Source: Sphaerolaimus hirsutus (taxonomy: Eukaryota > Nematoda > Chromadorea > Monhysterida > Sphaerolaimidae). Taken from it: DNA of 64,000 nucleotides. Positions within the stretch are counted from its first letter, which is position 1; the number at the start of each line of letters is the position of its first letter. Location: positions 1 to 64,000 of the forward strand of contig OZ038455.1 of assembly GCA_964036195.1 (NCBI GenBank). The letters run 5' to 3'. The notes beneath the pieces were generated by a model. That model was given only the letters and a program-made list of their open reading frames with translations. It had not been told where the DNA came from and did no database searches. Position numbers and translations under genes: made by a program. Shown piece after piece: positions 1 to 34,225 of this stretch.

Positions 1-3000
1 AGCCTAAGCCTAAGCCTAAGCCTAAGCCTAAGCCTAAGCCTAAGCCTAAGCCTAAGCCTAAGCCTAAGCCTAAGCCTAAGCCTAAGCCTAAGCCTAAGCC
101 TAAGCCTAAGCCTAAGCCTAAGCCTAAGCCTAAGCCTAAGCCTAAGCCTAAGCCTAAGCCTAAGCCTAAGCCTAAGCCTAAGCCTAAGCCTAAGCCTAAG
201 CCTAAGCCTAAGCCTAAGCCTAAGCCTAAGCCTAAGCCTAAGCCTAAGCCTAAGCCTAAGCCTAAGCCTAAGCCTAAGCCTAAGCCTAAGCCTAAGCCTA
301 AGCCTAAGCCTAAGCCTAAGCCTAAGCCTAAGCCTAAGCCTAAGCCTAAGCCTAAGCCTAAGCCTAAGCCTAAGCCTAAGCCTAAGCCTAAGCCTAAGCC
401 TAAGCCTAAGCCTAAGCCTAAGCCTAAGCCTAAGCCTAAGCCTAAGCCTAAGCCTAAGCCTAAGCCTAAGCCTAAGCCTAAGCCTAAGCCTAAGCCTAAG
501 CCTAAGCCTAAGCCTAAGCCTAAGCCTAAGCCTAAGCCTAAGCCTAAGCCTAAGCCTAAGCCTAAGCCTAAGCCTAAGCCTAAGCCTAAGCCTAAGCCTA
601 AGCCTAAGCCTAAGCCTAAGCCTAAGCCTAAGCCTAAGCCTAAGCCTAAGCCTAAGCCTAAGCCTAAGCCTAAGCCTAAGCCTAAGCCTAAGCCTAAGCC
701 TAAGCCTAAGCCTAAGCCTAAGCCTAAGCCTAAGCCTAAGCCTAAGCCTAAGCCTAAGCCTAAGCCTAAGCCTAAGCCTAAGCCTAAGCCTAAGCCTAAG
801 CCTAAGCCTAAGCCTAAGCCTAAGCCTAAGCCTAAGCCTAAGCCTAAGCCTAAGCCTAAGCCTAAGCCTAAGCCTAAGCCTAAGCCTAAGCCTAAGCCTA
901 AGCCTAAGCCTAAGCCTAAGCCTAAGCCTAAGCCTAAGCCTAAGCCTAAGCCTAAGCCTAAGCCTAAGCCTAAGCCTAAGCCTAAGCCTAAGCCTAAGCC
1001 TAAGCCTAAGCCTAAGCCTAAGCCTAAGCCTAAGCCTAAGCCTAAGCCTAAGCCTAAGCCTAAGCCTAAGCCTAAGCCTAAGCCTAAGCCTAAGCCTAAG
1101 CCTAAGCCTAAGCCTAAGCCTAAGCCTAAGCCTAAGCCTAAGCCTAAGCCTAAGCCTAAGCCTAAGCCTAAGCCTAAGCCTAAGCCTAAGCCTAAGCCTA
1201 AGCCTAAGCCTAAGCCTAAGCCTAAGCCTAAGCCTAAGCCTAAGCCTAAGCCTAAGCCTAAGCCTAAGCCTAAGCCTAAGCCTAAGCCTAAGCCTAAGCC
1301 TAAGCCTAAGCCTAAGCCTAAGCCTAAGCCTAAGCCTAAGCCTAAGCCTAAGCCTAAGCCTAAGCCTAAGCCTAAGCCTAAGCCTAAGCCTAAGCCTAAG
1401 CCTAAGCCTAAGCCTAAGCCTAAGCCTAAGCCTAAGCCTAAGCCTAAGCCTAAGCCTAAGCCTAAGCCTAAGCCTAAGCCTAAGCCTAAGCCTAAGCCTA
1501 AGCCTAAGCCTAAGCCTAAGCCTAAGCCTAAGCCTAAGCCTAAGCCTAAGCCTAAGCCTAAGCCTAAGCCTAAGCCTAAGCCTAAGCCTAAGCCTAAGCC
1601 TAAGCCTAAGCCTAAGCCTAAGCCTAAGCCTAAGCCTAAGCCTAAGCCTAAGCCTAAGCCTAAGCCTAAGCCTAAGCCTAAGCCTAAGCCTAAGCCTAAG
1701 CCTAAGCCTAAGCCTAAGCCTAAGCCTAAGCCTAAGCCTAAGCCTAAGCCTAAGCCTAAGCCTAAGCCTAAGCCTAAGCCTAAGCCTAAGCCTAAGCCTA
1801 AGCCTAAGCCTAAGCCTAAGCCTAAGCCTAAGCCTAAGCCTAAGCCTAAGCCTAAGCCTAAGCCTAAGCCTAAGCCTAAGCCTAAGCCTAAGCCTAAGCC
1901 TAAGCCTAAGCCTAAGCCTAAGCCTAAGCCTAAGCCTAAGCCTAAGCCTAAGCCTAAGCCTAAGCCTAAGCCTAAGCCTAAGCCTAAGCCTAAGCCTAAG
2001 CCTAAGCCTAAGCCTAAGCCTAAGCCTAAGCCTAAGCCTAAGCCTAAGCCTAAGCCTAAGCCTAAGCCTAAGCCTAAGCCTAAGCCTAAGCCTAAGCCTA
2101 AGCCTAAGCCTAAGCCTAAGCCTAAGCCTAAGCCTAAGCCTAAGCCTAAGCCTAAGCCTAAGCCTAAGCCTAAGCCTAAGCCTAAGCCTAAGCCTAAGCC
2201 TAAGCCTAAGCCTAAGCCTAAGCCTAAGCCTAAGCCTAAGCCTAAGCCTAAGCCTAAGCCTAAGCCTAAGCCTAAGCCTAAGCCTAAGCCTAAGCCTAAG
2301 CCTAAGCCTAAGCCTAAGCCTAAGCCTAAGCCTAAGCCTAAGCCTAAGCCTAAGCCTAAGCCTAAGCCTAAGCCTAAGCCTAAGCCTAAGCCTAAGCCTA
2401 AGCCTAAGCCTAAGCCTAAGCCTAAGCCTAAGCCTAAGCCTAAGCCTAAGCCTAAGCCTAAGCCTAAGCCTAAGCCTAAGCCTAAGCCTAAGCCTAAGCC
2501 TAAGCCTAAGCCTAAGCCTAAGCCTAAGCCTAAGCCTAAGCCTAAGCCTAAGCCTAAGCCTAAGCCTAAGCCTAAGCCTAAGCCTAAGCCTAAGCCTAAG
2601 CCTAAGCCTAAGCCTAAGCCTAAGCCTAAGCCTAAGCCTAAGCCTAAGCCTAAGCCTAAGCCTAAGCCTAAGCCTAAGCCTAAGCCTAAGCCTAAGCCTA
2701 AGCCTAAGCCTAAGCCTAAGCCTAAGCCTAAGCCTAAGCCTAAGCCTAAGCCTAAGCCTAAGCCTAAGCCTAAGCCTAAGCCTAAGCCTAAGCCTAAGCC
2801 TAAGCCTAAGCCTAAGCCTAAGCCTAAGCCTAAGCCTAAGCCTAAGCCTAAGCCTAAGCCTAAGCCTAAGCCTAAGCCTAAGCCTAAGCCTAAGCCTAAG
2901 CCTAAGCCTAAGCCTAAGCCTAAGCCTAAGCCTAAGCCTAAGCCTAAGCCTAAGCCTAAGCCTAAGCCTAAGCCTAAGCCTAAGCCTAAGCCTAAGCCTA

Positions 3001-4714
3001 AGCCTAAGCCTAAGCCTAAGCCTAAGCCTAAGCCTAAGCCTAAGCCTAAGCCTAAGCCTAAGCCTAAGCCTAAGCCTAAGCCTAAGCCTAAGCCTAAGCC
3101 TAAGCCTAAGCCTAAGCCTAAGCCTAAGCCTAAGCCTAAGCCTAAGCCTAAGCCTAAGCCTAAGCCTAAGCCTAAGCCTAAGCCTAAGCCTAAGCCTAAG
3201 CCTAAGCCTAAGCCTAAGCCTAAGCCTAAGCCTAAGCCTAAGCCTAAGCCTAAGCCTAAGCCTAAGCCTAAGCCTAAGCCTAAGCCTAAGCCTAAGCCTA
3301 AGCCTAAGCCTAAGCCTAAGCCTAAGCCTAAGCCTAAGCCTAAGCCTAAGCCTAAGCCTAAGCCTAAGCCTAAGCCTAAGCCTAAGCCTAAGCCTAAGCC
3401 TAAGCCTAAGCCTAAGCCTAAGCCTAAGCCTAAGCCTAAGCCTAAGCCTAAGCCTAAGCCTAAGCCTAAGCCTAAGCCTAAGCCTAAGCCTAAGCCTAAG
3501 CCTAAGCCTAAGCCTAAGCCTAAGCCTAAGCCTAAGCCTAAGCCTAAGCCTAAGCCTAAGCCTAAGCCTAAGCCTAAGCCTAAGCCTAAGCCTAAGCCTA
3601 AGCCTAAGCCTAAGCCTAAGCCTAAGCCTAAGCCTAAGCCTAAGCCTAAGCCTAAGCCTAAGCCTAAGCCTAAGCCTAAGCCTAAGCCTAAGCCTAAGCC
3701 TAAGCCTAAGCCTAAGCCTAAGCCTAAGCCTAAGCCTAAGCCTAAGCCTAAGCCTAAGCCTAAGCCTAAGCCTAAGCCTAAGCCTAAGCCTAAGCCTAAG
3801 CCTAAGCCTAAGCCTAAGCCTAAGCCTAAGCCTAAGCCTAAGCCTAAGCCTAAGCCTAAGCCTAAGCCTAAGCCTAAGCCTAAGCCTAAGCCTAAGCCTA
3901 AGCCTAAGCCTAAGCCTAAGCCTAAGCCTAAGCCTAAGCCTAAGCCTAAGCCTAAGCCTAAGCCTAAGCCTAAGCCTAAGCCTAAGCCTAAGCCTAAGCC
4001 TAAGCCTAAGCCTAAGCCTAAGCCTAAGCCTAAGCCTAAGCCTAAGCCTAAGCCTAAGCCTAAGCCTAAGCCTAAGCCTAAGCCTAAGCCTAAGCCTAAG
4101 CCTAAGCCTAAGCCTAAGCCTAAGCCTAAGCCTAAGCCTAAGCCTAAGCCTAAGCCTAAGCCTAAGCCTAAGCCTAAGCCTAAGCCTAAGCCTAAGCCTA
4201 AGCCTAAGCCTAAGCCTAAGCCTAAGCCTAAGCCTAAGCCTAAGCCTAAGCCTAAGCCTAAGCCTAAGCCTAAGCCTAAGCCTAAGCCTAAGCCTAAGCC
4301 TAAGCCTAAGCCTAAGCCTAAGCCTAAGCCTAAGCCTAAGCCTAAGCCTAAGCCTAAGCCTAAGCCTAAGCCTAAGCCTAAGCCTAAGCCTAAGCCTAAG
4401 CCTAAGCCTAAGCCTAAGCCTAAGCCTAAGCCTAAGCCTAAGCCTAAGCCTAAGCCTAAGCCTAAGCCTAAGCCTAAGCCTAAGCCTAAGCCTAAGCCTA
4501 AGCCTAAGCCTAAGCCTAAGCCTAAGCCTAAGCCTAAGCCTAAGCCTAAGCCTAAGCCTAAGCCTAAGCCTAAGCCTAAGCCTAAGCCTAAGCCTAAGCC
4601 TAAGCCTAAGCCTAAGCCTAAGCCTAAGCCTAAGCCTAAGCCTAAGCCTAAGCCTAAGCCTAAGCCTAAGCCTAAGCCTAAGCCTAAGCCTAAGCCTAAG
4701 CCTAAGCCTAAGCC
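1..4714. repeat. Telomere, canonical TTAGGC array
   Basis: About 785 uninterrupted copies of the hexamer read as CCTAAG on this strand (TTAGGC on the other). I saw no variant unit. The C-rich strand running 5' to 3' from the left end is the correct polarity for a chromosome terminus. TTAGGC is known mainly from nematodes. Confidence 0.98.
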
Positions 4715-5090
4715 CAAGCCCAAGCCCAAGCCCAAGCCCAAGCCCAAGCCCAAGCCCAAGCCCAAGCCCAAGCCCAAGCCCAAGCCCAAGCCCAAGCCCA
4801 AGCCCAAGCCCAAGCCCAAGCCCAAGCCCAAGCCCAAGCCCAAGCCCAAGCCCAAGCCCAAGCCCAAGCCCAAGCCCAAGCCCAAGCCCAAGCCCAAGCC
4901 CAAGCCCAAGCCCAAGCCCAAGCCCAAGCCCAAGCCCAAGCCCAAGCCCAAGCCCAAGCCCAAGCCCAAGCCCAAGCCCAAGCCCAAGCCCAAGCCCAAG
5001 CCCAAGCCCAAGCCCAAGCCCAAGCCCAAGCCCAAGCCCAAGCCCAAGCCCAAGCCCAAGCCCAAGCCCAAGCCCAAGCCCAAGCCCAAG
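4715..5090. repeat. Telomere variant repeat block, TTGGGC
   Basis: About 63 consecutive copies of CCCAAG (TTGGGC), a single T-to-C change from the canonical unit. The block is homogeneous, with no canonical units mixed in. Two canonical units follow at 5,091-5,102 before unique sequence starts. It sits on the centromere side of the array, where variant repeats usually accumulate. Confidence 0.95.
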
Positions 5091-5100
5091 CCTAAGCCTA

Positions 5101-5333
5101 AAGCGTGAATCGCGATTCAATCGGTCGGAATCGACTTTTTTTCACGTTTTTGTTTCTTAGGTATAAAGTGGCTATGGCAAACACCCCAAAACGTGTACAT
5201 TTTCTGAAAGAGCACACTCTCAGCTACGCAATGGTGTGTCTACTCCCGTTCCCCAAGAACGGTTAAGGCGTGAATCGCGATTCAATCGGCAGGAACTGAC
5301 CTGCATTCACATTTTTGTTTCTTAGGTATAAGA
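5101..5333. repeat. Subtelomeric direct repeat pair
   Basis: A roughly 65-bp unit beginning GCGTGAATCGCGATTCAATC and ending in GTTTCTTAGGTATAA occurs at about 5,103-5,166 and again at about 5,268-5,332. The copies are diverged in the middle. Each contains the short palindrome TGAATCGCGATTCA. It is the first non-telomeric sequence, so it is a candidate telomere-associated repeat. Confidence 0.75.
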
Positions 5334-20990: not shown

Positions 20991-21015
20991 AGCAAAAAAT
21001 CTATACTCAACCCAC

Positions 21016-21259
21016 CTGAATACTCCATTGGGCACATAGTGTGTCACGAGCAAAAGGCACTGACTTTGCACAGCCTCTGAACAAACTTCCTCCTTTTCAT
21101 CATGACTTGGCACAAAGCCAAGTGGTATTCTCTGCCACTCCGTTGACACTTGTGTTATTTTGGGCACATGATTGGTTTGACCTTTTGATAAAATATCACA
21201 ATTTTCTCTGCAAACTTTGTAGCACACTTTTCCTGATTTTCCATCAGTGCTGAATAGAG
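21016..21259 (-). CDS. bHLH-PAS exon 10 (divergent PAS-B)
   Basis: Acceptor CCCACTTTTCAG, donor TTCAG|GTGGGT, open for 80 codons. STDGKSGKVCYKVC follows the PAS-B opening, then WQRIPLGFVP and LLVTHYVPNGVF. Cys-rich and hard to align to known PAS-B domains, so the domain may be degenerate or differently folded. Confidence 0.75.
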
Positions 21260-24200
21260 CTGAAAAGTGGGAATGTCAATGCTTTGTTAATTTTGCTTCT
21301 TCAAATCTCTATGTGTTAAAATTATTACGTTGTAAAAAATTCACCCACCACATTTGTGTGCATTCTGCAATGTTTCATAGTTGTCAACAGAAATAAATTC
21401 ATAATAGCTTCTGCCAATTAACTGGTGTGGCAATTTGCCAAAATAATGCAGTGCATTGCTAAAAAATGATAATATCCATCTATTTTTCTCACTGAAAATT
21501 AGAGAAAATTATTCACACACACCAGAAATCAGTTTGTTTAAAGTGGCCGGCTTGTGTCAAAATCACCTCAAATTTGTTGCTCAAATCTGCATGAATATGA
21601 ATAGAAATAACCTGATATCTGCAATGGCAATGAACAAATTCTAAACTGACATGGCAATGGCACGAGTGTGCACTGCACTTACCATGGTTGTTCAAAAACA
21701 CAATTTCATCAAAATTAGTCAATGGCGGCTCTGTCAAAATTTGGTCAACATCTAACACCTGACAATGCAGAATAATCACAGGTGGGCTGAAGTACCTTGC
21801 ATTTTTGCCAGCACACAGTCTGAGATGAAATTGAAAAAGTGTACATTTGGTTGTAACATACGATTAGTGATGGAAAAGAACCAAGGGAAGGCGCTAGCAC
21901 CAACTAGCACTTTTGGTGGGTGCTTTTTTGCGTGGCGCAAGGAACAAAATGCCGGTCACTGGTGCCTGGTGCAAGTGCCAAAGAAAAAGCTCCATTTTGC
22001 TCTCGCACTATTGACCCTTTGTCCCCTGGCACCAAAGTCATGCTGGCACATTTTACCATCGCTACTAACCACACATACTGCATTTGCTTGAATAGTTCAG
22101 ACTCAAAAATAGAAGAAATTTTTAATCCAAAATTTGTCCATATTGTGACATTTATTTGCTCACCTATTCCAGTGCTGCAAAAACTCAGCCAAAGCTGGTT
22201 GAGGCGATGTGCTGGATGAAATGTGGCCCATTTGTTTTTCACTCAAATCGCTTTCATCCAAAGAACCTGGGCCATTGCCAAGACCTGGCAAATTGCCAGC
22301 AGTCTCAAAGAGGTTGAAATTGTCAGTGATTTGGCTCAGCGGCTGCTCGTAGCCAGTCGCCTTGATTAGAACGTATGGCTGGCTTGTGATTCTGCGATGG
22401 GAATGCTGTCAGGGCAAAAACAGCGCGCGTGAAGTGTACTGAAGTTGTCTAGAGCACCCCTTGTGATCAAACTTCACAGCCTGATCACGCCTGATTAACG
22501 ATGGACTGCACTTAAAGAACACTTCACGAATTTCATACTAAAGCAGATATAATTAAAGTGCTAGGTTGGTAGTTTGTCAAGGGCCAGACCTATTTCGCAC
22601 ATAAGCCTGTTTCGCACAAATGCCCCTTTCGCACATGCATGAAACCCGTTTCGCACAAATGCCCTTTTCACACAAAAATGATACCTGTGCGAAACGGGCC
22701 TATGTGCGGAACAGGCGTATGTGCCACACAGGCCTATGTGTGGTACAGGCGTATGTGCGTGTGCGTCGAGCATGTGACCAGGCACCCCAACTTTACCCCC
22801 CCCCCCCCTCCCCGCAGCACAATGATTTTCAGGCGGCGCCGGCTGGCTGTATAATCACAGCAAAAAATGCGCCATGATCTGCCGTGATCTGCATACTTCA
22901 ACGCACTTCACGAATTACTGATTTTTTTATTTCTGTAAACAATTTAGTAAACAAATCCGTGAAGTGTCGGTGAAGTGCATTCCAACGGTGATCAGGCGTG
23001 ATCAGGCTCTGAAGTGTGATCACGAGTGGTGAAGTGCCTGGTGATCAGGCGTGATCAGGGTCTGAAGTGTGATCACAAGGGGCACTTCAGACCACTTCAG
23101 TGCACTTCACAAGCACATTATTTGCTGTGAATGGCAGACAATGCAACATCTTGAATGATGCAATTCGACAGGGTTTCAGTCTCAAAAGTCATGGAAAATG
23201 CCCTGCAAAATGGCAACCAAGTTTCCATTTCGCAGGGCATTTTCCACGACTTTTGACTATGTAAAATGTCAAATGTCATGCAAACTGTCAAAATTCACGG
23301 AAAATCCCTTGCAAAATGAAAACTCAGACAGCCCGCGCCCCCTGGAACTCATTGTGCTGCGGGGAAGGGGGGGGGGTAAAGTTGGGGTGGCCGGTCACAC
23401 GCCAGTCGGCAACACGCACACAGGCCTATTTCTCACATGCGCCTGTTCCACACATACGCCTGTTCCGCACATAGGCCCGTTTCACACAGGCATCAGTTGT
23501 GTGCGAAACGGGTGTTTGTGCGAAACGGGTTTCATCCATGTGTGAAACGGGCGTATGTGCGAAACAGTGCACCATTGTTTGTCAAGTGTATTGAAGTGTC
23601 TGCAAGAATACACTTCACCTGGTATCAGTTCCGCGATTGGTAAAGAAAACGGAACACTTTCTGCTTCTCTCTTCACTTCACACATTTACTCTACTTTGTA
23701 CTTTTTACTTGACTCTTTAATTTTCCACTGGTGGATCCAGCACCAGGGGGCAGTCCCAAAGCGTCAACTGTGTATACAAATTTTATGTTTGATAAAAAGA
23801 TTCGGATAACAGAAAATAAGATATGGATACAAAACAGATAAAATTTTATACACAGTTGACACTTTGGGACAGCCACCTGTAGCTGGTTCCACAAGTGGAA
23901 CATTTATGTAAAGTAAAAAGTAAGGGTAGAGTGAAGAGGAATGTTTTCCTTTTCACTTTACCTCTTGCGGAAATGGCCTCAGTACCAGAGTTGTTAAAAG
24001 TACTGAACTTTTTTCAAAGTATACATAAACATAAAGTATTTATTTTTACTCACCCCCTGAGTACAGAATACATAAAGTAATTTTTTTTACTTTTACTCAT
24101 GAGTAAACATACGTAAAATACTATTCCTTCCAGAAAACATATCTTTGAGTATTTTTGGAAAATTTTGGCCCAATTTTCACTCAAAATAACACATTTTTGT

Positions 24201-27200
24201 ACCTTTTTGACCACTGTGACCTTCAAATTCACAAGTACATGTGTTATGTGCATATTTGAGCTTTTTTCCCATTTTTTTTGTTTTTTCTCCCCCTTTTCCC
24301 CATCTATGCCTTGAAAATACCTATAAAAAGCCTATCTGAAATACATATTCTGTACGTGAGTACTTTCAAAAAGAATACGTTAAAGTGAGTACAGCTACTT
24401 TTTTCAAAGTATACGTAAACGTATTTACTCAGTACTTGAGTATACGTACTTTTTTAGTAAACCTAAATACGTTTTAACAACTATACTCAGTACTGTTGTC
24501 GCTGCGTCTGCATTCAATAGAATAGAATAATTGAACTGGTATGGATTAGTGTTTGTTGCTACAGCTCGTTTTTCAAAGAAAAACAGAAAATTAAGCTAGA
24601 TAATACTTGATAGATTTTGCCCCTAGAGTTTTTTGCCCAATCAGCCACGTTTTCAATGCAATTTCTATGAATGCACACAAGAACGCACGGTGTGTTCATG
24701 CGGAAGTTGCAGGCGCGCAGGGCAGCACAGCCGACGGCGCCCCCGCCCCCGCCCCCGTCGGCCGTGGACGAGCTCACCACGTCTGCGCCCACACTGGCTA
24801 CAATTCACACTTGGAAAAAGCTACGTTTCGGAATGGCACCACTGGCGCTAGGCGCCCTTGTTTCTGGCGCTATTCGATCACTAGCACATCCACAATGTAG
24901 TCTTTGTAAATGCGATGCAAATTGGCAAATGATATACATGTTTTACGGGTGTATTTCGAGAGGGGTTTGGATTTAGCTCAGCTTGCTCACTCGGAACTTT
25001 GGTAAAGCAGAGGTAAAGCAAAGTGTCTAATATTAAGTCAAATGCAAAGTAAACTGTCAATTGTCATCCAAAGTTCAGTAATAAAATGTTTTCTTTTTTG
25101 TTTCGATTGACAGTTTAGGTACTTTGCATTTGACTTTACATTAGACACTTTACTTTACACTTCACAGGGCTTGGGACTGCCCCATGGTGGGTTTTCGAGG
25201 GGGCCGTCAATTCAGTGGGGATAATTTGAAGACATACGGTCGCTGCAATTCTGCTTGCTGCGATAGAAAACACTTACCGTATTACCTCTAATATAAGGTA
25301 TACCTTATATTGTTTTTGTCAGATTTTTCGAGCCAAAAGTTATGCCTTATATTAGAGGGTACCTTATATTAGAGGGTACCTTCAATTATTTTCACCAGAT
25401 TGAAAAGAAATTTTACCAACAGTGAACAACGATACAATTCATTTTTTTCAAATTGGAATCTACAAAAAAGGTGGTACAGTATCACTACAAAACGGCAGAA
25501 GTCGACGGAGAGTTATCGCATTGCCCTTCGGCACCATCTTCATCATTTTCCGCCATGTTTGGCGACCGTTTTTATGATTTTGCGCGTTTTGGCATTTAGC
25601 CAGCTGTGCCCTGTATTAGAGGTATGCCTTATATTAGAGGGTACCCTATATTTATTTCGTCGCGTTCAAAATAGACAAAAGTTATACCTTATATTAGAGG
25701 GTACCTTATATTAGAGGGATGCCTTACATTGGAGGTAATACGGTAGCATGCGAGCACAGAATGACTTAATGTATTTCCTCAAAATACCCCCGGGGGGTTT
25801 ATTTTTTCAGAGTGAGAATTTTGAGGGGGGGGTTAAACGAGGGGGGGGGGTATTTCGAGGGGGGTTATAAGTTCATAGTGTCTATTTTGAGGGGGGGTAT
25901 TTCGAGGGGGGGGGGTATTTCGAGGAAATACGGTAATCAAACCAAGTAGGTGTGCAGAAAACACTGACCATCTGGCTGCAAGCAGTGCTCCTCCAGCTGC
26001 GAGCCATGGCACTTGAGAAGGAATTGCTCCTTGGCCAACTGAGTGTCCTCTGAGTGGATCAGCTCAAAAATACTCCTACCCACCAGGCTTTCCTGAGGTG
26101 CAAATGCATTTTCGGTACTTTTTGAGATAGTATTTATTGTTTCAGGAATCATAGTTTTAAAAACGTATTTACATCTACAAAATATGTGAATACCGTATTT
26201 CTTCTAATATTAGGTTGTCAACTAAGTAACATTAATTTTTTGCTATCACACATACGCAAAAAATTAAGGTTACTTAGTTGACAACCGAGAGTGCCGTTAT
26301 ATTGTTTTCGTGAGTGCAAAAATGTGCGAAAACCTGCCGTTCTGTTGGAGGTTCTATGCCCTTTTGTTAGAAGAAATACGGTATGCCTACCGCACAGCAA
26401 GTATTGAGTATCAATCATACGTTTATCTATCTGATTTTATGTCGGTATACATTTTGAAAGAACAGAAACAGAAAATAAATTTGTAAGTTTTTCGGGGCAT
26501 ATTAGGGGAAATGGCGAAAAATAAATCAGCGAACCTTCTCAAAAATATTCACTGTTACATTTTCTTGGCGAAAACGTATTTTACCCACATTAGTCATGTG
26601 TAGTGATGGAATGGCGCCATGGCGCTGGCGCCCTTTAATGGCGCCAAAGGGCGCCAGCGCCATGGCGCCCTTTGACGCTTGGCGCCCTTTTCTGTGGCAC
26701 CATCTGGCGCCTGGCGCCATTGTTTTTGGTGGCGCCAGAAATGGCGCCTATATTTCGGGGTGAAAGATTTATTTTTCTATGTTCGTGTGAAAAAATATTC
26801 TGAATTGTTTCATTTTTGCAGTATTTAGCACATCTGCTATTGTAATTTTTGTTTTTATTTAAAGTTTGGGCTCATGTTCATTGTTTTATACCACACAAAA
26901 CTAAAAAATTGGCTCTGCTTTACTTACACGGATCACTGTTGTTTTGACATTGTTTTCTCTTTAGACTCAATTTGGGTGGGGGTGTACAATTACTGTATAT
27001 CCTCGAATAACCCCCCCCCTCGAATTAACGATAGCAAACCCTCCGAAAAAAAGTATTTAAATTTTTAAGTGTTTTTTCCAAAATGAATTTTCGAATTTTC
27101 GAATTTTTCCTCAGATTAGTTTTCGAATTTCGAATTTAATTTTCGAATTTTCGAATTTTCAAATCTTTTTGGGCAATTTTCAAATTTTTTTTGGGTAATT

Positions 27201-30200
27201 TTCGAATTTTTTTACATACTTTTCGAATTTTTTGCAAAAAATATTGAATTAAGAGCTTTGAGATGTTAAGTAGTTATGTTGAAATTATTATGGGTGCTTG
27301 GTGCATTCCTGCACATTGCTCAATGTGACCAGGTCCACCCATAGCTGGAATTGTGGGTGGCTGTTATGGGGGGGGGGGGGTCCACCTGACTATTGTGTCA
27401 TTCTGTTGTACGTTTTTATCTATATATTTACCATAAATCCTTCAAAAAGTCCACCTCAAATAACTCCCCCTTGAATAAGTCCCCTCAAAAATCACTGACA
27501 ACAAATAACCCCGCCCCCCAGGGGGACTTATTCGAGGATATACAGTATTTTTATAAAGTATATGATGGCATGTTCAGAAAAATTCATTTTACACGTTGAA
27601 ATACTGGGTCAAATTGTAAAATTAATTTATACAGCACTTATCTAACTTCAAAAATGGAATCTACATGTTCTGCAGATCATTTTAAGTATTTAACGGTCCA
27701 AATCGGCCAAGAAATGACCGAGTTATTAAGTTTCAAAGTCAACTAGCCAGATCTGCCATGTAAAATCAACACGTTTTTATAAATAGACACCCCCCCCCCT
27801 TCTTGGGACTGGGGGACGATTCAAGGAAAGAAACAATTTGGTTGAGTGCAACAGAATGTGGCGACACAAAGTCTGGTGGACCCACCCCCTAAAATGCCTT
27901 CCCCGATTCCAGCGCTGTGTCCGCCACGGATACCATTTCAACGTTCATTGACGTTTTTTTCTGTTTTGATAGACTTTTCCAGACGCACCGCGTATCAGTT
28001 ATCGATCGATTTAGCACATAGAACCTAAGATAGTGTTTTATTTCCTTGAATTCCCTGAAAAATTCGAAAACTATTTTCGAATTTATGAATTTTCAAATTT
28101 TCGAATTTTTTCAAAAAAAAATCTATTTTTAAGTGTTTTTCCCAGTGGTGGAAAAAAAATTCGAAAATTCCGAAAAAATTCGAAAATTCGAAAATATTTT
28201 CGAATTTTCGAATCTTTTTTTGCCATCGTTACCTCGAATAGCTTTCTCCCCTTGAATCACCCCCCTCTCAAAGACACCCAAAAAAACTTCCCTGGCGTTT
28301 TATTCTGGGATTTATGGTATATAGATGCACACAGTGGTTGAACACCTCTCCGATTACATGTTTCCCGGATACAAGTGTGGTGGTGCAAAGGGGGGTATTT
28401 CAACTGGGGCGGGGGTCATTACCCAGATAGCTCAGAGCTGTGTGGGTATTTCGAGGGGTGCAAATGCCAGGCAAACTTACCTGACGAAATAAAAGATTTC
28501 CCTTGAATAAGACCCGAATGTTGGTTAGTTATGGCTAGTGATGGAAAAAGCGCCAGGCTTTCGGCGCCAAGCGCCAAAAGCGCCATGGCGCTTTTCTGAC
28601 CCCGGCGCCAAGCGCCAATGGCGCCAGAGCAAAATGGCGCCAAGCGCCAAAAGCGCCATGGCGCTTTTCTGAACCTCAGCGCCAAGCGCCAATGGCGCCA
28701 GAGGGTGATGGCGCCAAGCGCCAATAGCGCCAGCGCCAAAAAATTTGTTCTACAATTTGATGGTAGAAAAATGAGTGTTAACTGTGAGTGACGTACCGCT
28801 GAAGTCATAGCAGTCTATTCAACTTTTGCCCATTCAAACAACCACTAAATCGAGGCAAAATTTCTCAAATAATCGCTCTGGAGAGATACATATCTGGTCG
28901 ATTTGGGGGGTGGGGGGCTCGAGCGATAGTAGCCTAAAATTTAGCATCAAGTTAGATAGATAGCTGAGCGGCACCGGGGATAGATAAATAGATAGACGGA
29001 GCGTTTGTTGGGCGGTAACCCCCTCCTTCCCACCCCCGCCAGACTGAACCCCTGATTTAGACTGCAAGAAAGAATTGGGAGCAAAGCATAAAAGGGGGCT
29101 TACCGCGATTTTAACACCTCTGCTTTTATTCCATGTTCACATCTATTTATATAAAGTCTACCCTAATATTAATCAATATTTATTCAGTTGCCTCAAAATT
29201 GATCAACTGCAGTGTCGATTTCACCGTGTTATCACAATTTTTTATTATCATTGTTGGCGCTTTTTTGGCGCCATTTAAAATGCCGGCGCCAGGCGCCAAT
29301 AGCGCCACCAGAAAATGGCGCCAAGCGCCAAAAGCGCCATGGCGCTTTCTCAAACCCCAGCGCCAAGCGCCAATGGCGCCAGAGCGTTTTAGCGCCAAGC
29401 GCCAAAAGCGCCATGTCGCTTTTTGCTTTGGCGCTAGCGCCAGGCGCCAGCGCCATGGCGCTTTTCCATCACTAGTTATGGCACATTGCAAACACTGGTG
29501 GCTTACACTAGCCAAAGTTTCATGATCACAACTTAAAGCAGCGTTGAGCTAGAGCACCATGTGTACATCAGTACAAAATGACCGAAATTGTAAACCCCAC
29601 AGTTCCTCAGTGGGGTGAGATTTTGGGTGAAAACTCAAAACACCTGATAACTTAACCTGTCAGAATTTTATGACCGTAGCTCACCCCTAGCGCGAATGGC
29701 GAGCACTGCCCGGGGACTTTTCAGCCAGACCATGTACATCACTAATCAAGAACAATATCAAACACTCACTGGTTTCACAGCCAAGGCGCCAACAACTCCA
29801 TTGGACACTTGCAGAATGCATCCATCCACAGATGAAAGTAGCATGTTGAATGAAGAATTATTTTGCTATGGATGGCAAGCGTTTTATGTTGAAAAAACAA
29901 AGTTTCAAAAATTGTAAAAAATCACTCACACTCTCATAAATCTCTTTCAATTGTGCAGGGGTGATTCCTGGGGGCAACCCTTCATGTGTTGCTTTGCTTG
30001 TGTTTTTCATGTTGCCTGTGATTTTTTTCTTGTAAGATTTCTTGTCACAGTACAATGTAAATAATTAGGTAAAGAACATGTAAAATATCACATGTCAAAT
30101 GTATCCAATGGCAATGGAAAAACATTTGAATAGGTTTGACACTTCACATGGTTTTTTACATGACACATGACATTTTACAATGTGTTTTACATAACACATG

Positions 30201-33200
30201 ATATTCTTAAGGTTTTTTTTACACATTACAAGGTGTTTTACAAGAAATGGGTAAAATGGTTCCATATTCATGAGAAAACGTGGTAATTGTACATTCTACC
30301 TAGGTGAATTTGCGTGTCAAATTGCAAAATCGTACTTGAAAATGTGTGAAAATGTTTGCCATTGTCTGACAGTCACCTGACAGTCAGCGACAAATGTCAA
30401 ATTTTTTCAAACTGTCAATAACTCTTGAGCTAAAATAACGATTCTGCGATGTTACATGCGTATTCACCTAGGTAGGAATTCTGTAGAGTGTATAGTTGAC
30501 CACTTTTTCCCATGAATATGGAACATTTTTACTCAACCCATTGAACTTTTCAATGTTGTCGAGTCTTCATAAAAAAATCTGTAACCAGACAGTGAAGCGC
30601 CATGGCGCCAGTGCCAAAGGAAAAAAAGCACGTGGTGCTTTTGATGCTTGTCACTATTGTGCGGTAGCACCAATGGTGCTTGCTGGGTGCCCTGCCGCGC
30701 CACAGCCTCGTGGTGCTGTGTCGATCACAATCGAAGAAGCAAGAGACCCCGCCACAGACCAGTGAGTGCACTGACGCATTGCACGGCCGTGCGCAGGATG
30801 GCGCTCTTGTCGCACGAGTGTCTCCCCCTGGCTGCTGGCCCCGTGCCAAGTGGAGTGGCGCCCGCGCACCGCCAATCGTCCGGCCCACTCGCGCACTGCT
30901 CTCTGCCTGCGGTTCGCGTTTTCTGTACTCGCGTACTTTCAAGCAAGTAAGTACACATACGGGTGAATGCTGGGCGTTTTTTCTGGAGGAGATGTAAACG
31001 TATTTACTCGGTGGTGCCATATTTCGCGGTGCCTTTTCCAGGATTACTCATGAGTAAAAGTGAAAAAAAAATTTCTAAGAATTAATTACTATCTTATATT
31101 ATAGTTTAAGGATAGCAAACAGGTGTGGTAGCCGAGAATTCGTCTCTTCAAATTTTATGTACAAATTTTGCAAATATTTTTATGCCTGTCAATTATTTCT
31201 ACAGGAGAAAGTGTAACTGGAACATTTAGGTTGTAGGTTTTGTTTCCAACTGTTTTCAAACCATCACTGGAAAGCCGAATTCCANNNNNNNNNNNNNNNN
31301 NNNNNNNNNNNNNNNNNNNNNNNNNNNNNNNNNNNNNNNNNNNNNNNNNNNNNNNNNNNNNNNNNNNNNNNNNNNNNNNNNNNNNNNNNNNNNNNNNNNN
31401 NNNNNNNNNNNNNNNNNNNNNNNNNNNNNNNNNNNNNNNNNNNNNNNNNNNNNNNNNNNNNNNNNNNNNNNNNNNNNNNNNNNNCACTTTCCAAATTTTC
31501 AGTATGGATACTTAAAGCGTAAGGTATTTTTAAAATACCTGGGAAAGCGTAAAAAAAAGCGTAAGCGTAAAAAATATTTAAGAGACATTTTCTCAGTGAA
31601 TTCTTTCCAAATCAAGCTCTCAGCGACATTTTTCGGATGTCCACTTAGTAGTCTGCCCTCATATGTTGTTTGGCAATTCATCGGCAGCGACACTTACCGT
31701 ATTTCTTATAATAGGAGAGCACCGTTCAATTTTTTTCGTCAACTTTTTTTGCCTGCCGTTATATGGGAGGTGCCGTTCTATTGGAGGCTGCCGTTCTATT
31801 AGAAGAAACACGGTAAGTCATCTTTTTATCTTCCAACTTGGACTTAGTGCTGTCGACGGCGACAACATCGTCGTTGGAATCCATTTTCAGCCCAAAATTT
31901 CTTAGCTGAAGCCACGATTTTGCTCGACGACACAGTATTAGCAAGACATTCATACTGCGACACAATTTGTAAATGTGCCACTATTTCCAGCACATTACTG
32001 CACGCACACAGTAATTTTTTTGGTACGCAGTTTCGTTCACTCTTTTTTGTGGTTTTATGCTTTCTCAAAAGTGTAAAACTGAACCGTGTGAAAAGCTTTT
32101 TTACGCTTTTAGTACCCGGGTATTTTGGCCGGGAAAGTGTAAAAAAGCGTACGGGTATTTTATGAAAGCGTAAGCGTAAGTATAAATACCCATTTACCCA
32201 GGTATTTCGGGTAAGCGTAAATACGCTTTCGCAACTCTGCTAGAGAGGCGACGCACGGGCGTGCGGGCGGGCGCGGGTGAGGCGGCCGATGCGGCAGAGC
32301 AGCGCGTTGATGGTGTCGCGTCTGCGCTTCTCCACCTCGCAGTGCTGCTGGCTCGGCGCCCCGCTGCACGCTGTCGGCGGCCGTCTGCGCACACTTGTTA
32401 CAAGTACCTAACTTTTTTCAAAGTACGCGTAAACGTAAAGTATTTATTTTTACTCACCCCCTGAGTACAGAAAACGTAAAGTAATTTTTTTTCTTTTACT
32501 GATTAGTAAACATGTGTAAAATACTTTTTCTCCAGAAAACGTAAAAGTGAGTATTTTTCAGGAATTTTGCCCCAATTTTCACAGAAAATCACGAATTTCA
32601 ATACCGTCTTGACTATTCTAACATTAAAATTCACTAGTTCATGTGTTATTGTCCAATTTTCAGCAATTTTTGGTATTTTTTGTAAATATGTTTCGCTTTT
32701 CTCTCCATTTTTCCATCTATGCTTTGGAAAAGCCTATAACAAAGCCTATTTGAAATACTTTTTCTGTATAATATAAAATAATATAATAATATATAATATA
32801 ATATAATATATATAATACATGATGTACATCATTACGGAGGGGGGGGGGGTGGTATTTCAAGGAGGGGTTTATAATTTCGCTAGAATGTGTGTTTGAAATA
32901 CACTACCGTGCAGAATAGTTGAGACTTTTCACACATAGAGAAACAGAAGTCTGGGGGTCCACCACACTTTTTTGCTTCCCAGTTGAGGTTTGATGCTGGG
33001 GCTACTATGAAAAAATTTTGTTTGCTCAAATAATCCCCTGGGCCCGAGATAAGGGGGGTCTATAAAAAGATGGTCAATTAATATACAAAAAATTGGCAAT
33101 CTGGATGAGTGAATTGAGTGATTGAAGCTTAATAACGTAACTCAACCATTTCTGGGCTGATTTGAATCATTCAACACTTAAAATGATCGGGACAACCTGC

Positions 33201-34225
33201 AGATTCTATTTTTGTGGTCAGTTTAGTGATGCTTAGATTTCGTATGAAGATTTGACCCAGTTTTTGAACATGGAAAAATAATTTTTTGAACATGCGATCA
33301 TATACTTTAGACAGCAAGGATTCATTTAAAACAAAAATGAGTTCAATATCTCTTGCCAATCAAAAGTTATGGCACTTCAAAGTTTTCAATGGTGTCTAAA
33401 TAGTTTATGCTTATTTTATGAAGCATGAAAATTTGGTTATTGAACTGTCTATACAATACTTTAGACAGAGAGAATAAATGTGACAAAAACATTTTTTCAA
33501 TATCTCTTTCCAATCAAAAGTTATAGCACTTACAAACTTCCATCTTCATTCCATCCAAAATACTTGCACATTACTCATTCACAGTTGGGCCAACTTTTCT
33601 CCCTAATAGAGCAAAGCCAAAACCTCAAATTTACACACCACTCAGTAGTATGCCTACCCCCATTTCTGAGTTGCTGGCAATGGATGCAAAACTGCAGCAA
33701 AAATAAATAAATGCCACATTTCCATATATGCATTGCCATATGCTGTTCATGCTTAGAATGTTTCTTGCTGCACACAGAGCTCAGCGATGCAGGCAAGCAG
33801 TTGCCATGACAAAAAAATTGTTAAAATATGAACATAGGAATTGGATATAGACTTTAAAGTGAGATACTGGGTGGCTACTGCCCAAAACAAGAAAAGTCTC
33901 AACTATTCTGAAACATGAACAAACTGAGTTAATATGTTTGTACACTAGGAATATACGCAGATTTGAACTCGAGGGGCAGTCATCCTGGGCATGTGTAGTC
34001 AACCCCCCAGGGTACCCATGTATAGTATCCAGCTTTTTGCATATTTCCCATTTCGAAATTCTGGCAACATTTATCACACAGCGCAAAAAGTCTCAACTAT
34101 ATTGTACAGCACGGTATATTGGTGAAAGAAAGTTAGAAAAAGGCAAGTGAAATGTTCGAAAGGGCTCACCTCTGGTAGCTGAGGGAAACGTCGCTGTCGC
34201 TTTCCATGCTCGCGCAATCGCACAT
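21016..34225 (-). CDS. bHLH-PAS transcription factor, ARNT/BMAL-like (10 exons)
   Basis: Exons: 34,225-34,170; 32,384-32,257; 30,831-30,760; 30,015-29,930; 29,865-29,770; 26,092-25,969; 24,782-24,689; 22,391-22,164; 21,786-21,683; 21,259-21,016. All nine junctions agree in phase. Order of domains: Ser/Asp N-terminus; basic region plus helix 1 (HCEVEKRRRDTINALLCRI); loop; helix 2 (DKSAILRTAVQCVSALTG); PAS-A (MLLSSVDGCILQVSNGVVGA, then LVGRSIFELIHSEDTQLAKE); the post-PAS-A RACNFRM and YVLIKATGYEQPL motifs of this family; then a divergent PAS-B region. The H-x3-E-K-R-R-R basic region is that of ARNT/BMAL partners, which bind E-box-like sites as nuclear heterodimers. Introns up to 3.9 kb consist mostly of MITEs. 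The end is not secured (candidate exon 16,945-17,116). Family call is confident; orthology to BMAL versus ARNT is not resolved. Confidence 0.85.
21683..21786 (-). CDS. bHLH-PAS exon 9 (start of PAS-B)
   Basis: Acceptor GTACTTCAG, full-consensus donor CATG|GTAAGT. Encodes PPVIILHCQVLDVDQ and FDEIVFLNNH; the latter sits where E-F-x-S-R-H opens PAS-B. Phases match both sides. Confidence 0.78.
21866..22070. mobile_element. TAGTGATGG-type MITE in intron 8
   Basis: TTAGTGATGGAAAAGAACC at the left and TTTTACCATCGCTACTAA at the right form inverted ends. It lies between exons 8 and 9 of the bHLH-PAS gene. Target duplication not clear. Confidence 0.55.
22164..22391 (-). CDS. bHLH-PAS exon 8 (ATGY motif and inter-PAS)
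   Basis: Acceptor CATCGCAG, donor AATAG|GTGAGC, 228 bp. Opens ITSQPYVLIKATGYEQPLSQ, equivalent to the conserved H-C/S-T-G-Y-L strand, then an acidic Ser/Gly linker (GNGPGSLDESDLSEKQ). Confidence 0.88.
22420..23115. mobile_element. GATCACGCCTGATCA iteron element (contains a GTGCGAAAC element)
   Basis: Outer arms contain GTGATCA, CCTGATCACGCCTGAT and the reverse GTGATCAGGCGTGATCAGG twice, plus CACTTCA/TGAAGTG words on both sides. A GTGCGAAAC iteron element sits inside at about 22,590-22,850. It occupies intron 7 of the bHLH-PAS gene. Confidence 0.6.
23335..23580. mobile_element. GTGCGAAAC iteron element
   Basis: G-tract plus AAAGTTGGGG, then alternating TTTCACACA/GTGTGCGAAACGGG units on both strands. 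Paired here with a TGCAAAATG palindrome (23,190-23,325), as at 9.4-9.9 kb. Confidence 0.6.
23615..23985. mobile_element. CAGTTCCGC-end inverted-repeat element with an insertion
   Basis: GGTATCAGTTCCGCGATTGG at the left and CTCTTGCGGAAATGGCCTC at the right are inverted. A palindromic element (CAGGGGGCAGTCCCAAAGCG, 23,744-23,880) is nested. Relatives at about 11,860-12,110 and 36,390-36,595. Confidence 0.55.
23986..24485. mobile_element. hAT-like MITE, CAGAGTTGTTAAAA family
   Basis: Starts CAGAGTTGTTAAAAGTACTG, ends TTTTAACAACTATA. Perfect 8-bp duplication CTCAGTAC at 23,978-23,985 and 24,486-24,493. Within intron 7 of the bHLH-PAS gene. Confidence 0.87.
24689..24782 (-). CDS. bHLH-PAS exon 7 (Gly-rich insert and RACNFRM)
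   Basis: Acceptor GTGGGCGCAG, donor CACC|GTGCGT. After a Ser/Gly stretch it ends ALRACNFRMNT, matching the R-x-F-x-x-R-M strand of PAS-A. Entry phase 1 and exit phase 2 agree with neighbours. Plus-strand Pro-rich frames over the same bases are shadows. Confidence 0.75.
25005..25185. mobile_element. CCCAAGCCCTG palindromic MITE
   Basis: The right end CAGGGCTTGGGACTGCCCC is clear, the left end eroded; arms of AAAGTAAACTGTCAATTG words as in the rest of the family. Confidence 0.6.
25277..25743. mobile_element. CCGTATTACCTCTAATATAAGG MITE
   Basis: TA-flanked. Ends CCGTATTACCTCTAATATAA and GGAGGTAATACGG. The arms repeat TTATATTAGAGGGTACC. Shares the first ten bases with the CCGTATTACCTCGA family but not the core. 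Confidence 0.82.
25770..25936. mobile_element. CCGTATTTCCTCGAAATA-type element, short
   Basis: Left end eroded (TGTATTTCCTCAAAATACCCC), right end CGAGGAAATACGG then TA. G/C tracts inside. It ends about 30 bp beyond the donor of bHLH-PAS exon 6. Confidence 0.65.
25969..26092 (-). CDS. bHLH-PAS exon 6 (PAS-A, second half)
   Basis: Acceptor TTTGCACCTCAG, donor GATG|GTCAGT. ESLVGRSIFELIHSEDTQLA is the strongly conserved L-x-G-x-S-x-F-x-x-I/L-H-x-x-D motif. The intron before it (3.7 kb) contains the GCGCC hAT MITE and a TAACGATGG MITE. Confidence 0.88.
26193..26381. mobile_element. CCGTATTTCTTCTAATA MITE with nested palindrome
   Basis: TA-flanked, ends CCGTATTTCTTCTAATA and TTAGAAGAAATACGG. A perfect-armed palindrome at 26,213-26,286 (GGTTGTCAACTAAGTAAC and its complement) is inserted near the left end. 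Confidence 0.75.
26602..26755. mobile_element. GCGCC-rich hAT MITE end
   Basis: TAGTGATGGAATGGCGCCATGG followed by GCGCCA words matches one arm of 28,536-29,474. Solo end. Confidence 0.6.
26990..28350. mobile_element. CTGTATATCCTCGA element interrupted by a hAT MITE
   Basis: Left part ACTGTATATCCTCGAATAAC at 26,992-27,017. The rest (CCTTGAATCACCCCCC onward) resumes after 28,231. The TAACGATGG MITE lies between, so the hAT insertion is younger. Outer right end uncertain. Confidence 0.55.
27026..28231. mobile_element. hAT-like MITE, TAACGATGG ends
   Basis: Ends TAACGATAGCAAACCCTCC and TTTTTGCCATCGTTA. Perfect 8-bp duplication CCTCGAAT (27,018-27,025 and 28,232-28,239). TTCGAATTTTCGAA arms. 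It contains sequence related to the TA-flanked element at 32,906-34,114 near 27,545-27,750 in reverse. Confidence 0.86.
28536..29474. mobile_element. hAT-like MITE with GCGCCA arrays, TAGTGATGG ends
   Basis: Starts TAGTGATGGAAAAAGCGCC, ends GCGCTTTTCCATCACTA. Perfect 8-bp duplication GTTATGGC (28,528-28,535 and 29,475-29,482). Both arms of about 200 bp are built of GGCGCCAAGCGCCAA words; the middle is unique. In intron 5 of the bHLH-PAS gene. The Ala/Arg-rich ORFs here are artefacts of the arrays. Confidence 0.88.
29770..29865 (-). CDS. bHLH-PAS exon 5 (PAS-A, first half)
   Basis: Acceptor GCCATCCATAG, donor AAACCA|GTGAGT, 32 codons, phase 0 at both ends. MLLSSVDGCILQVSNGVVGA is the typical opening of a PAS-A fold (hydrophobic helix, D-G, beta strand, S/N-x-V). 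Confidence 0.85.
29930..30015 (-). CDS. bHLH-PAS exon 4 (bHLH to PAS-A linker)
   Basis: Acceptor AATCACAG, donor GAGAGT|GTGAGT. Encodes NMKNTSKATHEGLPPG and ITPAQLKEIYES, an amphipathic linker leading to PAS-A, comparable in position to the segment after RGATN in BMAL-type proteins. Confidence 0.7.
30060..30240. mobile_element. Inverted-repeat TGTAAAATATCAC element
   Basis: AACATGTAAAATATCACATG at the left and the ACATGACATTTTACA-type words at the right form imperfect inverted arms, related to the CTGTAAAATG group. Confidence 0.5.
30245..30547. mobile_element. GGTTCCATATTCAT inverted-repeat element, copy 2
   Basis: GGTTCCATATTCATGAGAAA and the complement of CCCATGAATATGGAACATTT at the ends. 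Internal GTCTGACAGTCACCTGACAG. Lies in intron 3 of the bHLH-PAS gene. Confidence 0.75.
30760..30831 (-). CDS. bHLH-PAS exon 3 (helix 2)
   Basis: Encodes RGRHSCDKSAILRTAVQCV and LTG, the second helix. Two acceptors fit the incoming phase: 30,831 (CAGCAG, short loop) or 30,906 (CCGCAG, 25 residues more). The shorter gives a loop of normal size. Donor ACTG|GTCTGT is weak but gives the right phase. Confidence 0.75.
31285..31484. other. Assembly gap (200 N)
   Basis: Exactly 200 Ns, a conventional gap size, in intron 2 of the bHLH-PAS gene. It removes the left end of the MITE that ends at 32,239. Confidence 0.98.
31485..32239. mobile_element. hAT-like MITE (AGCGTA version), left end in the gap
   Basis: Right end CGCAACTCTG at 32,239, with CTAGAGAG as the expected target 8-mer. 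The arms carry AGCGTA hexamers where other copies carry AGTGTA or AACGTA. A CCGTATTTCTTATAATA MITE (31,697-31,813, TA-flanked) is nested. Confidence 0.75.
32257..32384 (-). CDS. bHLH-PAS exon 2 (basic region and helix 1)
   Basis: Acceptor GTGTGCGCAG, donor CCC|GTGCGT. One base completes an Arg codon with exon 1. Encodes QQHCEVEKRRRDTINALL, with His, Glu and Arg at basic positions 5, 9 and 13, the class that reads CAC half-sites. A hAT-like MITE ends 18 bp past the donor. Confidence 0.85.
32395..32770. mobile_element. CAGAGTTGTTAAAA-family fragment
   Basis: AAGTACCTAACTTTTTTCAAAG and the following TTTACTCACCCCCTGAGTAC match the family interior. It starts about 10 bp upstream of the exon 2 acceptor, so the pyrimidine tract of that acceptor is transposon-derived or lost. 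Confidence 0.6.
32906..34114. mobile_element. TA-flanked inverted-repeat element, mariner-sized, no transposase
   Basis: TA on both sides; ends CCGTGCAGAATAGTTGAGAC and the complement of CTATATTGTACAGCACGG, both leading into AGTTGAGACTTTT. At 1,209 bp and with a TA target it is mariner-like in size, but I see no DDE transposase frame. It fills intron 1 of the bHLH-PAS gene. Confidence 0.7.
34170..34225 (-). CDS. bHLH-PAS exon 1 (start codon)
   Basis: ATG at 34,225 (MCDCASMESDSDVSLSYQ) or, more likely by context, at 34,207 (MESDSD). Ends AG|GTGAGC in phase 2, matching exon 2. Short, acidic and Ser-rich as in many bHLH N-termini. Confidence 0.6.

Follow-up and report, generated by a model that had tools for sequence, protein, structure and literature searches.

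The described bHLH-PAS proteins with which the present locus can best be compared are ARNT (AHA-1), BMAL1 (CYCLE) and CLOCK (NPAS2). The His, Glu and Arg residues of the basic region contact DNA. A similar basic helix is present in USF, a bHLH-leucine zipper protein that to our knowledge has no PAS domains, and to which the protein described here showed a weak match (USF2, E 0.42). In C. elegans, AHA-1 is presented in a previous report (PMC4232591) as the best match to CLK, CYC, BMAL1 and BMAL2 alike.

The locus is situated in the window, i.e. the whole stretch of 64,000 nucleotides that was analysed (bases 1-64000 of the 29.3-Mb contig C7, in an assembly of 348,482,957 bases), for which a preliminary description had proposed an ARNT/BMAL-like gene of ten exons. 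We consider it probable (about 0.7) that this is a genuine multi-exon, divergent bHLH-PAS gene of the ARNT/BMAL kind (class II), additional to the ordinary ARNT pair of the genome and present in two intact copies. Judging from its sequence, the window gene is a new, fast-changing and duplicated member of a known family.

The predicted protein resembles ARNT/AHA-1 in the order of its bHLH, PAS-A and PAS-B regions and in the His/Glu/Arg pattern, and three introns of the gene share column and phase with those of the genome's own ARNT. It differs in that its bHLH region is 25.9-31.5% identical to that of ARNT, whereas the genome's ARNT is 85.2% identical to human ARNT in this region, in that no near ARNT counterpart exists for the introns within the HLH loop, behind RMNT and behind QHWN, and in having a copy at a chromosome end. 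BMAL1/CYCLE provided the top PDB match and is similar in the EKRRRD basic region, whereas the phylogenetic tree did not group the two and an exon-wise search found no CLOCK as a mate. CLOCK/NPAS2 ranked next below ARNT2 and agrees in two basic-region residues, the Glu and the Arg, whereas it has Arg where the window protein, ARNT and BMAL1 have His.

Gene model and domain content

Exon borders were determined by reading all minus-strand frames and setting the GT-AG sites by phase. The ten exons described previously, 56-244 bp in length, were all recovered; they lie on the minus strand, are bordered by GT/AG sites and agree in phase. An eleventh exon (exon 7 in Table 1), absent from the ten-exon set, fits in phase between exons 6 and 8; in the ten-exon version, exon 6 ends at 25965 and exon 7 is skipped. 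Exon 7 was accepted because of its counterpart on contig C6, the three all-synonymous differences between the two, and its phase. Its stretch ALRACNFRMNT resembles the ARNT sequence RRGFICRM. A donor located 4 bases further on also preserves the frame, and alternative splicing of exon 7 may occur. The two versions scored alike in a profile comparison (63.9 bits with ten exons, 63.6 bits with eleven).

The joined frame of the eleven exons encodes 459 aa, with a total exon length of 1379 bp. Exon 1 has no homology of its own. For exon 2, alternative in-phase acceptors would place the start at 32363 or 32351, and for exon 3, whose acceptor reads CAGCAG, a start at 30834 is equally possible. The splice donors include several weak ones (GTCTGT, GTGCAG). 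Exon 11 is followed by a GTGGGT donor at 21015, and read-through would add nine residues before a stop that is the same in both copies; exon 11 may thus be the last exon, in which case the protein would have 468 aa.

Table 1. Positions of the gene and of associated features (window coordinates unless a contig is given; differences are relative to the C6 copy).
Feature	Position	Strand	Description
Telomere	1..5101		(TTAGGC)n read on the other strand, 99% match, no indels
Segment collinear with C6	7479..36278		23 pieces; C6:29930570-29959041
Exon 11	21016..21259	-	PAS-B end; spliced at 21016 or read-through to TGA 20990-20988
Exon 10	21349..21458	-	PAS-B (ALHYFGKLPHQLIGRSYYEFISVDNYETLQNAHK); 1/110 differences
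Exon 9	21679..21819	-	Inter-PAS and PAS-B start (NFDEIVFLNNHG); 2/141 differences
Exon 8	22164..22391	-	Last PAS-A strand and inter-PAS segment (QPYVLIKATGYEQ); 5/228 differences
Insertion of ~1 kb, intron 7	22581..23577		9-10-bp target repeat (C)TTGACAAAC; C6 site empty
Exon 7	24689..24782	-	PAS-A end; 3/94 differences, all synonymous
Exon 6	25969..26092	-	PAS-A core (ESLVGRSIFELIHSEDTQLAKEQF); 7/124 differences, 0 gaps
Exon 5	29770..29865	-	PAS-A start; 0/96 differences
Exon 4	29930..30015	-	bHLH to PAS-A linker; 0/86 differences
Exon 3	30760..30831	-	Helix 2 (DKSAILRTAVQCVSALT); 0/72 differences
N run of 200 bases, intron 2	31285..31484		Assembly gap
Exon 2	32257..32384	-	Basic region and helix 1 (QQHCEVEKRRRDTINALLCRIGRLT); 0/128 differences
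Exon 1	34170..34225	-	ATG; MCDCASMESDSDVSLSYQ and split codon, phase 2 exit; weakest exon; 0/56 differences
Second copy	C6:29,933,142-29,948,706		11/11 exons, 11/11 GT donors, 10/10 AG acceptors

The reading of the joined exons as bHLH and PAS-A was borne out, the inter-PAS segment was located in exons 8-9, and a weak PAS-B was added. An HMM search of the joined peptide had been proposed, and its outcome was divided: with the 11-exon peptide, the Pfam families PAS_11 (2.3e-8, 34.4 bits, cut-off 25) and PAS (6.7e-6, 26.5 bits, cut-off 22.6) exceeded their cut-offs, whereas HLH (5.4e-4, 20.2 bits) was 0.5 bit short of its cut-off of 20.7. One predicted protein therefore contains a bHLH followed by PAS-A and PAS-B, with the HLH below cut-off and the PAS-B weak (15.6 bits, i-E 3.4e-4 with the family profile described below); the PAS-B stretch alone gave 8.0 bits against BMAL1 in the PDB phmmer search, which is not significant.

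When the whole protein was compared with PDB sequences using phmmer, the best matches were BMAL1 (E 3.5e-11, 46.1 bits) and ARNT (1.4e-10, 44 bits), followed by ARNT2 (3.8e-9), CLOCK (1.8e-7, 33.8 bits) and PERIOD (3.4e-5, 26.3 bits, PAS only). The matches to AHR (E 0.14, at most 14.4 bits) and HIF/EPAS1 (E 0.17) in the same search were not significant.

As a control, a profile was constructed from human ARNT, mouse BMAL1, mouse CLOCK, human EPAS1 and the genome's own ARNT, excluding the window gene. The model reached 63.6 bits, compared with -2.9 for its reversed sequence and at most 4.1 among 1000 shuffles. Applied to the entire window in the form of 2016 pieces of six-frame ORFs, the profile yielded six matches up to E 10. 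The first four were exons 10, 6, 2 and 3 (E 0.0022, 0.0058, 0.48 and 1.4), all on the minus strand and arranged in the order of the profile; the pieces of exons 2 and 3 are weak taken singly, and the remaining two matches (E 4.7 and 8.3) lie outside the gene model. The profile-scored strings lacked residue R19, and the string used for the bHLH alignment started at residue 20.

As had been claimed, a listing of open reading frames misses the gene. A Pfam HLH scan of the whole genome (28 matches at E 0.001, 52 candidates scored) misses it too, which can be ascribed to the small size of the exons and their position within repeat-rich introns. "Transposon-filled" is a fair term for these introns, as 4752 of their 11631 bases match repeats, versus none of the 1379 exon bases, when compared with ~115 kb of sequence comprising 70 kb of C16 and 45 kb from the rest of the window. 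Transposon-like families with the ends TAGTGATGGAAAA and ACCGTATTACCTCGAA, the latter carrying C-runs, were observed at 28536-29485 and at sites such as 26600, 25290, 34588 and 35010. Another bHLH gene occurs twice on C7 in near-identical form, with 37 kb between the two (C7:20616175-20616312 and C7:20653232-20653369, minus strand).

Relationship to ARNT, BMAL1 and CLOCK

The basic-region residues H33, E37 and R41 align with the His, Glu and Arg of both ARNT and BMAL1. At the H33 site CLOCK has Arg, while keeping the Glu and Arg, and EPAS1 lacks both the His (nothing is aligned there) and the Glu. The bHLH identity amounts to 19/54 (35.2%) for BMAL1, 17/54 for human ARNT and 14/54 (25.9%) for the genome's own ARNT, compared with 13/51 for CLOCK and 8/50 for EPAS1. 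The PAS-B region is no closer to ARNT (19.4%) and BMAL1 (23.8%) than to CLOCK (24.5%) and EPAS1 (24.3%). The proposed ARNT/BMAL-like kind is supported by BMAL1 and ARNT as the top matches, by the His of the basic region and by the three introns shared with ARNT; the presence of two of the three basic residues in CLOCK weighs against it.

The ordinary ARNT gene was found twice on C16 (19734349-19734504, minus strand, and 19857682-19857837, plus strand). The two copies account for two of the 28 HLH matches of the genome scan, are ~123 kb apart in opposite orientation and differ in their introns. Their identity as ARNT is undoubted, given a bHLH that matches human ARNT in 46/54 positions (85.2%) and scores of 382 bits with ARNT versus 243 with BMAL1. 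The window gene is not the ARNT orthologue of the genome, the two C16 copies being far closer to ARNT.

For the comparison of introns, the exons of the plus-strand C16 ARNT were mapped and its intron positions were read by eye; the window exons had been fixed before this map was made. Three of the nine compared introns lie at an ARNT column with the same phase, and four of the nine lie within one column. The exact matches are the introns 3' of exon 3 (phase 1; SALT/G and SIR/A, the slash marking the intron) and 3' of exons 4 and 5 (phase 0; YES/Q and ILE/A, VKP/E and CSQ/A). The intron 3' of exon 9 is one column off that of ARNT and has the same phase 2, a fifth intron lies at an ARNT column with a different phase, and four of the nine are more than 12 columns away from any ARNT intron. 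Three exact matches were reached in 0 of 20000 random intron placements. The introns in common with ARNT may be ancient and occur in other bHLH-PAS classes too.

A phylogeny with ARNT, BMAL and CLOCK had also been suggested, and here the scores and the tree diverge: the former favour ARNT/BMAL, whereas the six-sequence tree does not place the gene. In the unrooted ML tree (321 columns after trimming), the window gene has a branch of 1.9 substitutions per site and joins the branch between ARNT+BMAL1 and CLOCK+EPAS1, inside neither. The support, untrimmed and trimmed, was 70 and 68% for ARNT/BMAL1 versus the rest, and 55 and 60% for CLOCK+EPAS1. This position would fit an early or long-branch member of the family and argues against assigning the gene firmly to class II. 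Seven placements, two of which are the same unrooted tree, were compared by AU tests, and because the tree held no further nematode or invertebrate sequences, only one of them fell outside the 95% AU set. That one, barely excluded at 0.046, joins the gene as a sister to the ARNT of this genome alone; grouping with BMAL1 gave 0.17 and grouping with the ARNT clade 0.39, and the CLOCK and EPAS1 placements were within the 95% set.

These comparisons bear on a tentative but quite possible alternative, namely that the gene is a lineage-specific, very fast evolving ARNT duplicate, perhaps acting as a dominant-negative or tissue-specific partner. The intron columns and phases that it shares with the genome's ARNT, the occurrence of ARNT itself twice on C16 and the AU value of the ARNT-clade grouping are consistent with such an origin. 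However, a sister relationship to the genome's ARNT alone is marginally excluded, and the bHLH identity to that ARNT is below the identity to mouse BMAL1 or human ARNT.

It is rather unlikely that the gene is instead the animal's own BMAL/CYCLE orthologue, too diverged for ordinary searches and kept after the loss of canonical BMAL and CLOCK. Exon-wise searches of the genome found neither canonical BMAL nor canonical CLOCK (best E for CLOCK 0.055). The BMAL searches did not list the window gene either, and split or diverged BMAL or CLOCK exons could therefore be missed as well. Exons resembling SIM/TRH, AHR and PER, named by eye, are present in the genome; the PER-like PAS-B exon is located at C13:14484828-14485085 (L073). 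The BMAL orthologue reading draws on the failure to find canonical BMAL and CLOCK, on this PER-like PAS-B, on the BMAL-like EKRRRD and on a bHLH slightly nearer BMAL1 than human ARNT. Nevertheless, the last margin is two residues, the BMAL1 grouping was not favoured in the AU test, and six-frame exon searches can miss split exons. The result of the search agrees with the AHA-1 pattern given for C. elegans (PMC4232591). A more specific version, in which the twin gene is the BMAL/CYCLE arm (in C. elegans seemingly AHA-1) surviving in some nematodes as a very fast-evolving gene pair with one copy at a chromosome end, with CLOCK gone and partner and output rewired, appears doubtful to us.

Returning to the preferred reading of a divergent ARNT/BMAL-kind gene additional to ARNT, one part of the preliminary description could not be upheld, namely that this is the animal's partner-class circadian/hypoxia factor: ordinary ARNT is present twice on C16, the bHLH is 25.9-35.2% identical to ARNT/BMAL, and the tree gives no placement.

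The second copy and the chromosome end

A protein search of the genome gave 22 matches, each of the 11 exons being found once on C7 and once on C6. The exons of the two copies differ at 20 of 1379 positions (1.45%) with no gaps, and exons 1-5 are identical across 438 bp. The aligned introns differ at 209 of 5462 sites (3.83%) and contain 31 gap events (Fisher p 3e-6 for exon versus intron divergence). The intron divergence is a lower bound, because the alignment was limited to one collinear chain of matches of at least 80 bp and at least 84% identity (14,914 aligned sites, inserted DNA omitted). Together, the C6 copy and the three introns shared with ARNT support the gene model by two independent checks.

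The collinear segment (Table 1) has ends near the edges of the C6 sequence that was compared, and blocks found in one copy only lie between its pieces. The gene is carried by a patchy segmental duplication of ~29 kb. A GC-rich, exon-like ORF ending GGLDFRGYRNPSK (13614-13829, plus strand) is also located within the segment shared with C6 and had no Pfam match.

Between the copies, the NG86 estimates were dN 0.0084 and dS 0.037 (dN/dS ~0.23), dS being close to the intron divergence of 0.038. Nine of the 20 changes are nonsynonymous (p 0.0014 for nine or fewer under neutrality), and the absence of exon gaps compares with 7.8 expected if exons behaved like introns (p 4e-4). Eight of the nine amino-acid changes fall in exons 6 and 8, where constraint may be relaxed.

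A decaying pseudogene that looks intact through recent duplication is very improbable in view of these values. The long branch, the weak donors, the ambiguous 3' end and the heavy repeat load of the introns could all be expected of such a sequence, but they are countered by the dN/dS with a dS near intron divergence, the lack of exon gaps and the unchanged exons 1-5. The probability that ORF fragments came together by chance to mimic a bHLH-PAS gene is negligible: the exon set was indeed chosen by eye for resemblance, but the second copy and the shared introns refute this origin, and these, the exon comparison and the ORF-piece ranking are all independent of that choice.

The position of the gene near a telomere was confirmed, as its exons lie 15.9-29.1 kb from the (TTAGGC)n array. 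TTAGGC gave 5261 forward and 11713 reverse overlapping matches genome-wide, and the reversed control gave none. This repeat is considered the canonical nematode telomere in the TeloBase paper (PMC10767889). The nematode cuticle collagen N-terminal domain PF01484 had 56 matches in the genome, all above the cut-off, and together with the telomere repeat these point to an animal that is probably a nematode, or possibly a nematomorph. Interior TTAGGC arrays occur, among the matches listed, at C1:28243494, C1:32249001, C2:5287004 and other sites, and are possibly old fusions or insertions.

A telomere position effect on the window gene is a suggestion, and for any such putative effect the more interior C6 copy would be a natural control. 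That copy is ~105 kb from its contig end, where a telomere array is lacking in the last 300 bases and eight TTAGGC words occur in the last 6 kb.

Elsewhere in the window, a segmental duplication was observed between 49189-52748 and 54964-58546 (88-96% identical in several blocks). Exon-like ORFs at 55449-55691 and 59552-59770 (minus strand) have by eye the look of MAM-domain or cysteine-rich secreted proteins and had no Pfam match. In total, five candidate exons not belonging to the gene were compared with Pfam and none matched, nor did Rfam at its gathering threshold match anything in the window. A search for SL1 RNA (RF00198) gave no matches, and its controls gave no match either.

Predicted activity and implications

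If the gene is expressed as modelled, the protein would dimerise through its HLH and PAS regions with a class I partner, for which AHR-like and SIM-like exons, recognised by eye, exist in the genome. His33, Glu37 and Arg41 would be predicted to read the GTG half of an E-box or a related site. The window protein would probably modulate, and not replace, the ordinary ARNT dimers. Should exon 11 be terminal, the protein would stop just after PAS-B, without a C-terminal activation region, which would make a competitor or repressor likelier; the 468-aa form, if real, might thus compete with ordinary ARNT or act as a repressor.

The finding suggests that clock and hypoxia genes may be undercounted in nematode genomes rich in repeats. 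Were the gene a BMAL relic, it would be relevant to the loss or rewiring of the positive arm of the clock in nematodes; were it an ARNT duplicate, it would be relevant to the way in which a general partner divides its work.
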